A DNA stretch of 64,000 nucleotides from Tenacibaculum pacificus (lineage in GTDB: Bacteria; Bacteroidota; Bacteroidia; Flavobacteriales; Flavobacteriaceae), in assembly GCF_027941775.1 (NCBI RefSeq), contig NZ_CP115917.1, positions 2,727,744 to 2,791,743 of the forward strand, given 5' to 3'. The notes under the pieces are model-generated. The model had not been told where the DNA came from, made no database searches, and was given only the letters and a program-made list of their open reading frames with translations. Positions within the stretch are counted from its first letter, which is position 1, and the number at the start of each line of letters is the position of its first letter. Made by a program: the position numbers and the translations under genes. This document shows positions 14,491-59,287 of the stretch, in pieces.

Positions 14491-14590
14491 AGAAGCAATT
14501 TCCTGCTTTCCGCACTCGCTTTTTTTATTTTTTCAAAAGAAAAATAAAAAAGAGCTCAAACAATTGCTTCAATCAGGGCTAGGCTTTTTT
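14491..14590. repeat. Dispersed intergenic palindromic element, copy A
   Basis: The core at 14505-14574 (starts GCTTTCCGCACTCGC, ends GCTTCAATC) is identical over 70 bp to the copy at 37306-37375 and closely matches, in reverse, the copy at 59211-59274. Inside is a T-rich/A-rich hairpin; outside, GAAGCAATT (14493-14501) and AATTGCTTC (14562-14570) form a second inverted repeat. The element occupies most of the 367-bp gap between rhlE and pepP. The rest of that gap holds the rhlE terminator and the pepP promoter. Confidence 0.8.
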
Positions 14591-17686: not shown

Positions 17687-17815
17687 CTTTTTACTTTTTA
17701 TTTCAACCAAAAAAATTGTTGATGATTAATACTGGTACAAAGATTCGACGAGAATAGACTTTTAAAAATGGACAAAGGTTCCTTAAACTTGGACTAAATA
17801 ATATTTTAAAAATAT

Positions 17816-17864
17816 TTTGTTAACCTTAGCTTGCATTTTCAGTCGAAAAAACAATATATATTTG
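17816..17864 (+). promoter_or_regulatory. Conserved promoter region of small-RNA unit 1
   Basis: TTTTGTTAACC, then GCATTTTC and the -7 box TATATTTG at 17857-17864, align with the upstream blocks of units 2-4. This copy alone has a TTG (17831-17833) at a usual -33 distance. Confidence 0.65.
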
Positions 17865-17869
17865 TAGTG

Positions 17870-17955
17870 TTATTATAGGTTACATATCCCCCGTGTGTGA
17901 GTCCCCCCAGAAATAATAGCCAAACTCGTAGCCTTGTGTATTACGAGTTTTTTTT
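17870..17955 (+). ncRNA. Putative small RNA, unit 1 of a four-member family
   Basis: No open frame of useful length is present. Transcription should begin a few bases after the -7 box at 17857-17864 and end at the stem AACTCGTA (17923-17930)/TACGAGTT (17942-17949) with eight T. That makes about 86 nt. The body holds two unpaired cytosine tracts, 17888-17892 and 17903-17908, followed by AGAAATAATA. The opening GTAGTGTT, the C tracts, the GAAATnATA stretch and the terminator loop CTTGTGT are shared with unit 4. Ends are estimated. Confidence 0.65.
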
Positions 17956-17995
17956 GTGTCTTTTTTTTAATAATGAATAACATAAATATCCTAAT

Positions 17996-18043
17996 TTGTT
18001 AACATATACTCACATTTTAAGGCTAAGAAACAATATATATTTG
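17996..18043 (+). promoter_or_regulatory. Conserved promoter region of small-RNA unit 2
   Basis: TTGTTAACATATACTCACATTTTAA-type block (nearly identical in units 3 and 4) followed by the -7 box TATATTTG at 18036-18043. A -33 TTG at normal spacing is missing. Confidence 0.65.
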
Positions 18044-18048
18044 CAGCG

Positions 18049-18121
18049 TTGTTGTTATTTAGAACATGCGAATAGTATGTTTGCTCTCTAACTCGTAAAC
18101 TTGTGTGTTACGAGTTTTTTT
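18049..18121 (+). ncRNA. Putative small RNA, unit 2
   Basis: About 73 nt from an estimated start after the -7 box to the T run. The 5' half can form a small hairpin (AACAT at 18063-18067 with ATGTT at 18077-18081). The terminator stem is AACTCGTAA (18090-18098)/TTACGAGTT (18108-18116), with the same CTTGTGT-type loop as units 1 and 4. It lacks the cytosine tracts. The spacer after it, including ATGCC and a second T run, repeats after unit 3, which points to tandem duplication with a period near 170 bp. Confidence 0.6.
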
Positions 18122-18164
18122 ATGCCTTTTTTTTAATAATAATGAATAACATAAATACCCTAAT

Positions 18165-18212
18165 TTGTTAACATATACTCACATTTTAAGACTAATAAAC
18201 AATCTATATTTA
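18165..18212 (+). promoter_or_regulatory. Conserved promoter region of small-RNA unit 3
   Basis: The same TTGTTAAC-ATATACTCACATTTTAA block as unit 2, then TATATTTA at 18205-18212, in which the last base of the -7 box is changed. Confidence 0.6.
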
Positions 18213-18217
18213 CAGTA

Positions 18218-18290
18218 TCTTATATTCTTAATAATACATCCCCAAAAGATTGAATACCTAACTCGTAAACTATGTATTACGAGTTTTTTT
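18218..18290 (+). ncRNA. Putative small RNA, unit 3
   Basis: About 73 nt, the same length as unit 2, ending in AACTCGTAA (18260-18268)/TTACGAGTT (18277-18285) and seven T. The body diverges strongly and contains one CCCC tract (18240-18243). Its altered -7 box (TTTA) and changed terminator loop may mean weaker or lost expression. Confidence 0.55.
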
Positions 18291-18303
18291 ATGCCTTTTT
18301 TTT

Positions 18304-18590
18304 AATAAATTTTAAATTTTACTCATACCTATTTCATATAAAATAAATAATAGCTCTAAAATTATTAAAGATTAAAAAAAGAGCTCTAATAATTGAATTA
18401 TCTAACATTTAAAGTAATACATTATTAATTACATCAATATTACAATTAGCAAAAAGCTTGATTTTAAGCAATCTACAAACTCTTTTATCTTTTAAAAAAA
18501 ATGACAATTAAGAATAATAAAACATCATTATAACACATCGCTATTTTTTAAAATTAAAGAACCTTTTTAAGGTTTTAATGATTAACAGAA
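18304..18590. other. AT-rich spacer between small-RNA units 3 and 4
   Basis: No coding frame or clear unit is seen. GAGCTCT-type repeats near 18353-18385 and a short palindrome AACCTTTTTAAGGTT at 18560-18574 are present; they could be remains of another unit, but I cannot align them to the family. Confidence 0.4.
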
Positions 18591-18600
18591 ACAATATGAT

Positions 18601-18648
18601 TTGTTAACATATACTCACATTTTAATCTTAAAAAAACAAATACATTTG
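18601..18648 (+). promoter_or_regulatory. Conserved promoter region of small-RNA unit 4
   Basis: TTGTTAACATATACTCACATTTTAA-type block at 18601-18625, then the -7 box TACATTTG at 18641-18648. Confidence 0.65.
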
Positions 18649-18653
18649 TAGTG

Positions 18654-18739
18654 TTGTTATTCTGTAGTAGCCCCCAGATACTAATTCCCCCGGAAATGAT
18701 AATACCCAACTCGTATACTTGTGTCTTACGAGTTTTTTT
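18654..18739 (+). ncRNA. Putative small RNA, unit 4
   Basis: About 86 nt, equal to unit 1. It carries CCCCC at 18671-18675 and 18687-18691 and ends with AACTCGTA (18708-18715)/TACGAGTT (18727-18734) and seven T. The aligned parts shared with unit 1 (GTAGTGTT, both C tracts, GAAAT, terminator loop CTTGTGT) despite a diverged remainder suggest selection on these pieces. The terminator ends 15 bp before the stop of the convergent AraC gene, so it may serve both. Confidence 0.65.
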
Positions 18740-18754
18740 ATGCCTTTTTTTAAA

Positions 18755-19606
18755 TTATGATGATTCTTTTTGTGCTTTTTGAAACTGTTTTGGAGATTGT
18801 CCTGTAGCTTTAGTAAAAAATCGAGAAAAATATGCAGGATCATTAAATCCTAAATCAAAAGCAATATATTTTATAGCATCAGTAGAATATAATAATTGAC
18901 GCTTCGCCTCTATTACAATTCTATTTTTAATAAAATCGCTAGGTGTTTTTGAATTTATTTTTTGAAAATGCTTCGTTAATGATTTTGGCGAAATACCCAA
19001 ACGATTCGCATAATCAGAAACACTATGTAGTTTTTTAAAATTTTGAGAAACTAACAAACTAAAATCTTTAAATAACTTTGTTTCTTCGTCTTCTTTAATT
19101 AAATTATATTCTTTTTTTATACGAACAGAATGAATAATAAATTGTTTTAAATACGCTTGTAACATATCATATTTTGCAGTTTCAGTATTTTCAAATTCAT
19201 CAACTAAACTATCAATAATAAAATCTAATTTTTGACTATCTTTTTCACTTGGTTTTACAAAAGGAGTTTCGTACACATTATTAAACAATACGCCGTTACA
19301 GGAAATTTCAGAATCATGAGCTTGAACACAATAAAAATCTTGATCAAAACTTAATTGATACGCTTCTTTTATTTTTTCTGATGTTACTGAAAACATTTGT
19401 CCTGGAAATAAAAAAAATAATACACCATCATTAAAAGAATAGCGTTCAAAATCAATATGATATATTCCAGATCCTTCTTTTATCCAAAAAATTTTGTAAG
19501 TATTAATTTGAGTTGGTTTATTAACTATACAAGCTTTTTCAAATTGTACAGTTTGTAGTGAAAATATCTCTTGATATTTATAAGTTTTTATATTTTGAAT
19601 AGCCAT
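18755..19606 (-). CDS. AraC-family transcriptional regulator
   Basis: The 283-residue protein has an N-terminal cupin-like effector region (about 25-160, with GSGIYHIDF and LFFLFPGQM) and a C-terminal AraC DNA-binding domain (about 185-280) with the characteristic IKYIAFDLGFNDPAYFSRFFTKATGQSPKQF second helix-turn-helix. It is cytoplasmic. The gene converges on small-RNA unit 4. The effector and targets are unknown; regulation of the neighbouring small RNAs is possible but unsupported. Confidence 0.9.
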   Translation of the reverse strand: MAIQNIKTYKYQEIFSLQTVQFEKACIVNKPTQINTYKIFWIKEGSGIYHIDFERYSFNDGVLFFLFPGQMFSVTSEKIKEAYQLSFDQDFYCVQAHDSEISCNGVLFNNVYETPFVKPSEKDSQKLDFIIDSLVDEFENTETAKYDMLQAYLKQFIIHSVRIKKEYNLIKEDEETKLFKDFSLLVSQNFKKLHSVSDYANRLGISPKSLTKHFQKINSKTPSDFIKNRIVIEAKRQLLYSTDAIKYIAFDLGFNDPAYFSRFFTKATGQSPKQFQKAQKESS

Positions 19607-59186: not shown

Positions 59187-59204
59187 TTAGTGTTCAAATT
59201 TTTA

Positions 59205-59287
59205 GCCCCGATTGAAGCATTTGTTTGAGCTCTTTTTTGTTTTTTTCAAACAAAAAAAGCGAGTGCGGAAAGCGGGAAATTGCTTCT
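59205..59287. repeat. Dispersed intergenic palindromic element, copy C (inverted)
   Basis: Core at 59211-59274, inverted relative to copies A and B. Compared with them, the hairpin arm TTTATTT is TTTGTTT and the opposing AATAAA is AACAAA, a compensatory pair change. GAAGCAATT and AATGCTTC-type outer arms are kept. It lies between dut and recA with a terminator. Confidence 0.75.

Follow-up and report, generated by a model that had tools for sequence, protein, structure and literature searches.

Four tandem units beside an AraC-family gene

The window, a stretch of 64,000 nucleotides from Tenacibaculum pacificus (G000:C1:2727744-2791743; genome size, 2.79 Mb), carries four short units in tandem on the + strand, followed by an AraC-family regulator gene that is convergent with them (18755..19606, − strand; Pfam HTH_18 and tblastn on the loci). 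A repeat search of the window found a family of 99-nt upstream repeats (D1) with four copies, at 17769, 17948, 18117, and 18553, and a family of terminator-block repeats (D2), also with four copies. The D1 spacings of 179, 169, and 436 match the 179 and 169 bp given for units 1-2 and 2-3 in the original prediction for this DNA.

Each unit combines an operator-like element, a −7 box, a predicted sRNA, and an intrinsic terminator, all on the + strand. In unit 1, the element TTAACCTTAGCTTG (17820..17833), aligned with the TTAAC-N4-GTTAA operator of relatives, has the left half-site only. It is followed by the −7 box TATATTTG (17857..17864), which has the sigma-A form TAnnTTTG, and by a predicted sRNA of about 87 nt (17869..17955) with C-runs at 17888-17892 and 17903-17908, ending in the terminator AACTCGTA..TACGAGTT plus a T-run (17922..17955). 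Units 2 and 3 carry the element TTAACATATACTCA (17999..18012 and 18168..18181), the boxes TATATTTG (18036..18043) and TATATTTA (18205..18212), predicted sRNAs of about 74 nt (18048..18121, with no CCCC run, and 18217..18290, with a single C-run at 18240-18243), and terminators at 18090..18121 and 18260..18290, respectively. Unit 4 has TTAACATATACTCA again (18604..18617), the box TACATTTG (18641..18648), a predicted sRNA of about 87 nt (18653..18739) with C-runs at 18671-18675 and 18687-18691, and a terminator at 18708..18739.

The common terminator stem AACTCGTA/TACGAGTT with its T-run, claimed originally for all four units, is present in each of them, and the terminator pattern has four sites in the whole genome, all in the array (reversed control, 0). 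The pairs of equal length, units 1 and 4 and units 2 and 3, measure 87 and 74 nt here, compared with the 86 and 73 nt proposed. The claim of a shared upstream region stood for units 2 to 4, in which 26 bp are identical, but unit 1 is less conserved than had been stated: where units 2, 3, and 4 have the same TTTGTTAACATATACTCACATTTTAA, it has TTTGTTAACCTTAGCTTGCATTTTCAG. A genome-wide search for the 26-bp element with up to three mismatches gave three sites, all exact and all in the array (reversed control, 0).

The open reading frames that touch the units are 20 to 46 aa long, apart from one of 71 aa on the opposite strand that overlaps the AraC gene, in agreement with the claimed lack of a meaningful frame. 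With such short frames, a coding function of the units was ruled out. Upstream of a divergent small operon lies the block AATGGACAAAGGTTCCTTAAACTTGGACT (17764..17797, no strand assigned), recognized by eye and taken to be a probable AraC site; similar blocks were seen by eye in relatives, both with and without the sRNA.

Predicted structure and its conservation

A covariance model, R1, was built from 12 units, including window units 1 and 4; a MAFFT alignment of 21 divergent units had seemed of too low quality for modeling. In a search of 142 kb, for which E-values are approximate, R1 recovered all four window units. Units 1 (17865-17954, 69.6 bits) and 4 (18649-18739, 61.7 bits) belonged to the training set, while units 2 (18050-18121, 32.5 bits, E 5.8e-4) and 3 (18213-18290, 37.2 bits, E 6.5e-5) stood outside it. 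In the best-formed units, a long-range stem closes a hairpin whose loop carries CCCC; one further CCCC lies between the stems and one after them, followed by the terminator. Units 1 and 4 have their architecture in common, as well as the C-run motif. The single-sequence fold z-scores of units 1 to 4 are −3.2, −2.0, −1.8, and −4.1, those of units 2 and 3 being weak, and the predicted fold of unit 3 is without the long-range stem.

Conservation of the pairs was assessed in a model-based alignment (A6) of 24 units, 23 of them distinct; A6 was fitted to R1, and its pair counts therefore lean towards the R1 structure. Standard pairs fill 89.1% of the pair cells, compared with 30.5-51.9% in slid-partner controls, and double changes occur in 19 of 29 pairs; none of 500 shuffles reached the observed values. 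In stem 1 (10 pairs) and stem 2 (7 pairs), every pair shows a double change. Random divergence of homologous loci, stems and −7 boxes included, had been named as an outcome that would speak against the prediction; compensatory changes and a conserved −7 box were found instead, and relatives have kept the −7 box, the terminator, and the operator spacing, as expected from the proposal that promoter and terminator are conserved.

The Rfam search proposed with the original prediction, which was to include Flavo-1, was run on the window, and no family reached its gathering cutoff on any unit. The same held for the units in two sets of loci from relatives (20 and 14 loci). Subthreshold matches look like chance, as in the case of Esr41 (20.2 bits against a cutoff of 102), and the units gave no match to Flavo-1 (RF01705) even at E up to 5; Rfam families, Flavo-1 included, were accordingly rejected as the identity of the units. 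The window holds two Flavo-1 RNAs elsewhere, at 59200-59283 (+, 53.0 bits) and 14495-14584 (−, 46.4 bits). Among the open-licence papers listed, judged by titles and the openings of abstracts, none describes this sRNA family. The repeats D1 and D2, the stems with compensatory changes, and the lack of an Rfam match agree with the proposed origin of an sRNA-like family by duplication. Judged from these sequence features, the four units are a non-chance, sRNA-like gene family whose transcripts are predicted.

Distribution among relatives

The search for further copies with a covariance model, likewise suggested at the outset, used R2, a model of 24 units whose training took in all four window units and units from about nine of the genomes later matched. 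At E ≤ 0.001, R2 matched 21 of 166 genomes of the genus (Polaribacter/Tenacibaculum group), the window's own included, and 1 of 397 genomes of the family Flavobacteriaceae, solely the window's own; both searches used filters that lose weak matches. The four matches in the window's genome at this threshold are the array and nothing else. In five of the 21 genomes the best E is only 3e-4 to 7.5e-4, and one of these, G026, has no other support. Some units found by other means, in G003 and G008, are missed by R2. A search with the terminator only matched 11 of 59 genomes, and the stem alone was not counted as family membership.

The same AraC gene as in the window lies within the 1.5-kb flank of a unit in 16 of the 21 R2 genomes (tblastn on the loci), and the unit and the AraC gene are convergent in all 16, as judged from their strands by eye. 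The genomes without this neighbor are G018, G142, G143, G145, and G026; in the first four, a single unit precedes a gene that reads, by eye, like a glutaminyl-tRNA synthetase. The AraC gene also served as a query to locate the corresponding place elsewhere in the genus, and 30 loci were inspected. Besides the window's own, three had units opposite the AraC strand (two in G072, one each in G003 and G028), and the upstream element of these three genomes is a clean TTAAC-N4-GTTAA palindrome starting 36-37 nt before the −7 box. No unit was seen at the other 26 loci, two of which (L042 and L047) did not show the place.

Two further elements were noted behind AraC genes. Eight loci without the array (L031, L033, L035, L036, L038, L040, L044, and L046) have another conserved, structured-looking element, GCGTGAAGGAT..TTGTTTGAGCTC..AAAGCGAGTTG..GGCACGCCC, which resembles Flavo-1 by eye and has no Rfam match at the cutoff. 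At L024 (G068), TTTTGTCTTTTGGCTCGGGAG is repeated about a dozen times in direct orientation, as seen by eye.

Tandem arrangement is found elsewhere as well. G002 has four units in tandem before a YfcE-type phosphoesterase-like gene, G091 has four, G116 has three and three more within 2.4 kb, and G112 and G130 have two each.

A putative CRP-type operator in the promoters of relatives

The promoters were searched in 116 genomes of the genus with the pattern TTAAC-N4-GTTAA, 20-25 nt, TAnnTTTG. It gave 47 exact sites in 31 of the genomes, and the reversed control gave none. The spacer is 22 nt in 38 of the 47 sites and 21-24 nt in the others; CCCC follows within 110 nt in 42 and is absent in 5. 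By eye, the exact sites lie beside AraC, in front of a YfcE-like phosphoesterase gene, in front of a DUF6122 gene, between CRP-like genes, or in front of a TonB-type gene. Allowing two mismatches extended the promoter matches to at least 83 of the 116 genomes, but the reversed control then also matched many, and the exact-pattern result alone was therefore counted. A sigma-70 promoter scan is little informative in this phylum.

In Flavobacterium psychrophilum, the sigma-A box TAnnTTTG is described at −12 to −5 (PMC9723704). With a spacer of 22 nt, this position puts the center of the operator at −41.5. We take −41.5 to be the position of a class II activator. The promoters of the relatives, with a palindromic operator near −41.5, thus fit the CRP/FNR class II layout, for which binding and activation are predicted from sequence.

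The operator of the relatives reads TTAACATATGTTAA and its counterpart in the window TTAACATATACTCACA. In the window the left half is kept, the right half is ACTCA instead of GTTAA, and the center lies at −42.5 in all four units; the palindrome centered near −41.5 that marks the class II layout is absent from the units, and the exact pattern has no site in the window's genome. A similar drift was found in G145, G018, G142, and G143 and a stronger one in G008, and all five genomes keep a C-run of at least five.

At five other loci (L064, L072, L073, L074, and L129), operator and −7 box precede a gene by 186-205 nt, and no more than one C-run is present. The operators of the first four are exact, and L129 has a one-base change in the −7 box. 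The gene behind is of TonB type in L064 and has a similar start in the other four; it is a possible protein-coding target.

A CRP-like regulator gene linked to the sRNA

Of the 47 exact sites, 18 stand no more than 46 nt behind a CRP-like gene of the same strand, and 8 are followed by another CRP-like gene; 29 of the 47 have no CRP-like gene in front. The linked protein has about 191-195 aa and a PF00027 domain, and its profile matches the 3dn7, CAP, DNR, and FNR chains among PDB profiles. Its structural model (pLDDT 93.3) has GlxR, Mycobacterium tuberculosis CRP, and FNR as top Foldseek matches. By domain, profile, and model, the linked gene belongs to the CRP/FNR family, with a cyclic-nucleotide-binding beta-roll, a long helix, and a C-terminal HTH; among 32 aligned proteins, the helix NITPVQLSRIRK is strongly conserved.

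The association was also counted from the protein side, with up to 4 mismatches of 14 allowed in the operator and CCCC sought within 160 nt. The first sample consisted of 20 CRP-like genes at the 10 loci most similar to one linked protein, from a family first noticed beside such sites; 18 of the 20 were followed by operator and −7 box, 18 by CCCC, and 17 by both. Among 86 distinct other gene ends, a cleaned null from the genus that excluded the window's genome, the corresponding counts were 2, 4, and 1 (Fisher p below 1e-14). An earlier null of 137 gene ends, with 12 operator-like and 14 CCCC cases, had contained repeats and loci from the site search. A second set consisted of 20 hand-picked regions in which no site had been noticed among the two-mismatch matches listed, although one of them, G105, was in fact listed. 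By eye, 12 of the 20 had a unit. After filters had dropped L352, L362, and L371, a script found the operator behind 11 of 17 genes, with CCCC in 10 of the 11, and no CCCC behind the 6 without an operator. Across the 116 genomes, an R2 match was present in 8 of 15 with the closely related CRP type and in 4 of 101 without it (p 4e-6), the threshold for the type, 190 bits or more, having been picked after the table was seen.

The window's genome has 12 matches to the cNMP-binding domain, and no sRNA unit was seen by eye behind any of these CRP-like genes. The closest it comes to the linked CRP type is a match of 31% identity, and its DUF6122 gene has neither a CRP gene nor a unit in front. By reciprocal best match, two CRP-like types, perhaps three, are common to five drifted-operator genomes examined, the G145 copy of the third candidate lying near a contig end; none of them has a unit behind. 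Among the CRP-like genes of the window's genome, L146 (G000:C1:1785191-1785739) comes closest in its recognition helix (ITPTQLSRIKK). By eye, it is followed by a half-matching site, TCAACATATGTATA, and a −7-like box ahead of an ORF with a signal-peptide-like start; it has no reciprocal best match in the four drifted-operator relatives.

Of at least 118 named stretches, 80 were examined, and the pair of CRP gene and operator was found in Tenacibaculum and Polaribacter and also in Winogradskyella, Psychroserpens, Olleya, and Gaetbulibacter; the short unit behind gene and operator has no CCCC in these latter four genera. At eight loci of Winogradskyella and kin (L171, L174, L175, L181, L186, L190, L227, and L228), a CRP-like gene is followed by an exact operator and a short unit with a terminator, the body of which is about UUAAUAGCCCUAAC, without a CCCC run; this unit is perhaps a sister sRNA with another seed. 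At L179, L185, L192, and L200, from more distant bacteria (Runella, Ectothiorhodospiraceae, Bacteroidota, and Flavobacteriales), the operator stands behind a CRP-like gene, and a protein ORF begins 17-74 nt on. The sRNA may have replaced a neighbor gene as the nearest target of the CRP-like regulator. Operator matches also turned up in unrelated bacteria (among them L155, L176, and L209 with no C-run, and L191 and L201 with one CCCC each); none of these has a CRP gene in front, as chance would give. In the CRP-sRNA-CRP place (L078, L133, and similar loci), it is common for the second CRP-like gene, too, to have a site resembling the operator behind it, together with a further CCCC run.

Exposed C-runs

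The base composition of the units was examined in 27 of them, chosen by operator, −7 box, and terminator and totaling 2,582 nt. They contain 74 CCCC runs, or 2.87 per 100 nt compared with 0.03 in the window (about 95 times as common), and at least one run is present in 26 of the 27. In the minimum-energy folds, 304 of 331 C (92%) are unpaired, compared with 38% of the other bases. Within the window, units 1 and 4 have two CCCC runs each, unit 3 has one, and unit 2 has none. The suggestion that the units are a family with different seeds is not supported: what the wider family shares is an exposed CCCC run. The complementary GGGG is seldom met close to start codons: for the 310 starts considered, the bins from −50 to +9 total 7, and no GGGG target signal was seen in these 310 start regions. 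Pairing targets would consequently be few or special.

Proposed mechanism and alternatives

From the computed repeats, structure, synteny, operator, spacing, and linkage, we infer transcription of the units, activation, and RNA-RNA pairing. Each unit would be a short regulatory RNA gene, transcribed from a sigma-A promoter of its own up to an intrinsic terminator. The RNA would be turned on, in many relatives and presumably in the ancestor, by a CRP/FNR-fold regulator that binds the 14-bp palindrome centered at −41.5 and is often encoded directly upstream of one such sRNA gene. In the predicted fold, loops and linkers would display stretches of four to six unpaired C, which would most likely base-pair with mRNAs that contain GGGG, blocking or destabilizing them, with extra copies raising the RNA dosage. 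In the lineage of the window, the linked regulator and its sRNA would have been lost and the operator would have drifted. Taken as a whole, this account of tandem short regulatory RNA genes, with CRP-type activation in relatives and pairing of C-runs with GGGG mRNAs, is in our judgment probably correct.

The same array could instead be orphaned and decaying, the family working elsewhere while here the regulator is lost and the copies are turning into pseudogenes. The half-lost operator of the window fits such a history, as do the failure to find the linked CRP type and its sRNA in the window's genome, the lack of C-runs in unit 2, and the predicted fold of unit 3 without its long-range stem. 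The drifted operator is, however, itself conserved, with 26 bp identical in three copies, and a nearly identical one precedes single units with a C-run in the loop in G145, G018, G142, and G143; units 1 and 4, moreover, have kept stems, C-runs, and terminators. We regard decay of this kind as unlikely. CsrB-type RNAs titrate CsrA, and C-runs that bind a C-preferring RNA-binding protein, with copies raising the dosage, would account for several short single-stranded motifs per molecule, for tandem copies, and for the scarcity of GGGG near starts. The Bacteroides case, RbpB, belongs with a different paralogous family as that family is described (PMC11697453), and titration of a protein seems to us a rather poor prospect.

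An RNA that joins a CRP-family regulator at target promoters, as proposed for Bacteroides SnoA, would make sense of the neighborhood, in that a CRP-family gene of Bacteroides thetaiotaomicron adjoins a regulatory RNA locus (HcpR-SnoA; PMC13370916, preprint). According to the same preprint, however, snoA levels are independent of HcpR, whereas here the operator lies within the sRNA promoter, and a promoter-acting RNA is highly improbable. The slightest chance is given to repetitive DNA or a row of terminators or leaders without a product of its own, an idea that the AT-rich intergenic setting and the ORFs following single units at other loci might suggest. Every unit has a promoter-like box and a terminator, the stems carry compensatory base changes, and at the AraC place there is no gene to be led, because the next gene is convergent (16 genomes, by eye).

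For the preferred account, regulatory RNA genes with CRP-type activation, the window's own case is weaker than that of its relatives. The drift of the operator and the failure to find the linked CRP type imply that either another CRP-like protein took over the array or the array is partly decaying. A broader proposal, which we rate at somewhat below an even chance, is a module across the Flavobacteriaceae in which a small CRP-fold regulator has an sRNA directly behind it under its own class II operator. In the Polaribacter/Tenacibaculum group, this sRNA would have become a CCCC-displaying antisense RNA, copied to other loci and amplified in tandem, that acts on G-rich mRNA sites without use of Shine-Dalgarno sequences.

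Three features go beyond the original prediction: in relatives, the CRP-type operator and the CRP-like gene linked to the sRNA, and the AraC place that recurs. The linked regulator with its exact operator offers a ready experimental handle on the sRNA family. C-rich sRNAs are known chiefly from bacteria in which they mask Shine-Dalgarno sequences, and members of this phylum are reported to lack or not recognize these sequences (PMC6847099, PMC9976891). Given that flavobacteria hardly use them, a C-rich family makes the question of what a C-rich RNA pairs with directly testable.

Comparison with known systems

Among the short structured RNAs of flavobacteria, Flavo-1 (RF01705) is unmatched by the window units. 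The Rfp RNAs of F. psychrophilum, Rfp18 among them, come from the same bacterial family and have the same −7 box; Rfp18 is set apart by its description, pairing via its third stem-loop, and the main text of that paper contains neither "crp" nor "cccc" (PMC9723704). The FopS/GibS RNAs of B. thetaiotaomicron are likewise a multicopy sRNA family of the Bacteroidota with sigma-A-type promoters. They are described with 14 copies, another seed, and RbpB as a partner, which sets them apart, and "crp" and "c-rich" are absent from the main text (PMC11697453). The phylum already offers a case of a regulatory RNA locus with a CRP-family gene upstream, HcpR-SnoA of B. thetaiotaomicron, as presented in the preprint (PMC13370916). 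The logic there is different, with snoA expression independent of HcpR, a location near hcp, and a proposed promoter-RNA mechanism.

The closest parallel in arrangement is with LhrC1-5 of Listeria monocytogenes, described as five near-identical copies, four of them at one locus (PMC4132741). The window's units are, on their sequence, several copies each with its own predicted promoter and terminator. LhrC has a redundant UCCC motif in two loops and a linker, comparable to the exposed C-runs that make up a redundant single-stranded C-rich motif here (26 of 27 units with at least one CCCC), and one regulator is needed for all copies, which we count as a further likeness (PMC4132741). That regulator is LisRK, compared with the CRP type here, and LhrC blocks Shine-Dalgarno sequences (PMC4132741). 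Such sequences are as a rule missing in the Bacteroidota. No sequence relation between LhrC and the window family was seen, there being no Rfam match. The window family is absent from Rfam and is no member of LhrC; by analogy, it would work like it.
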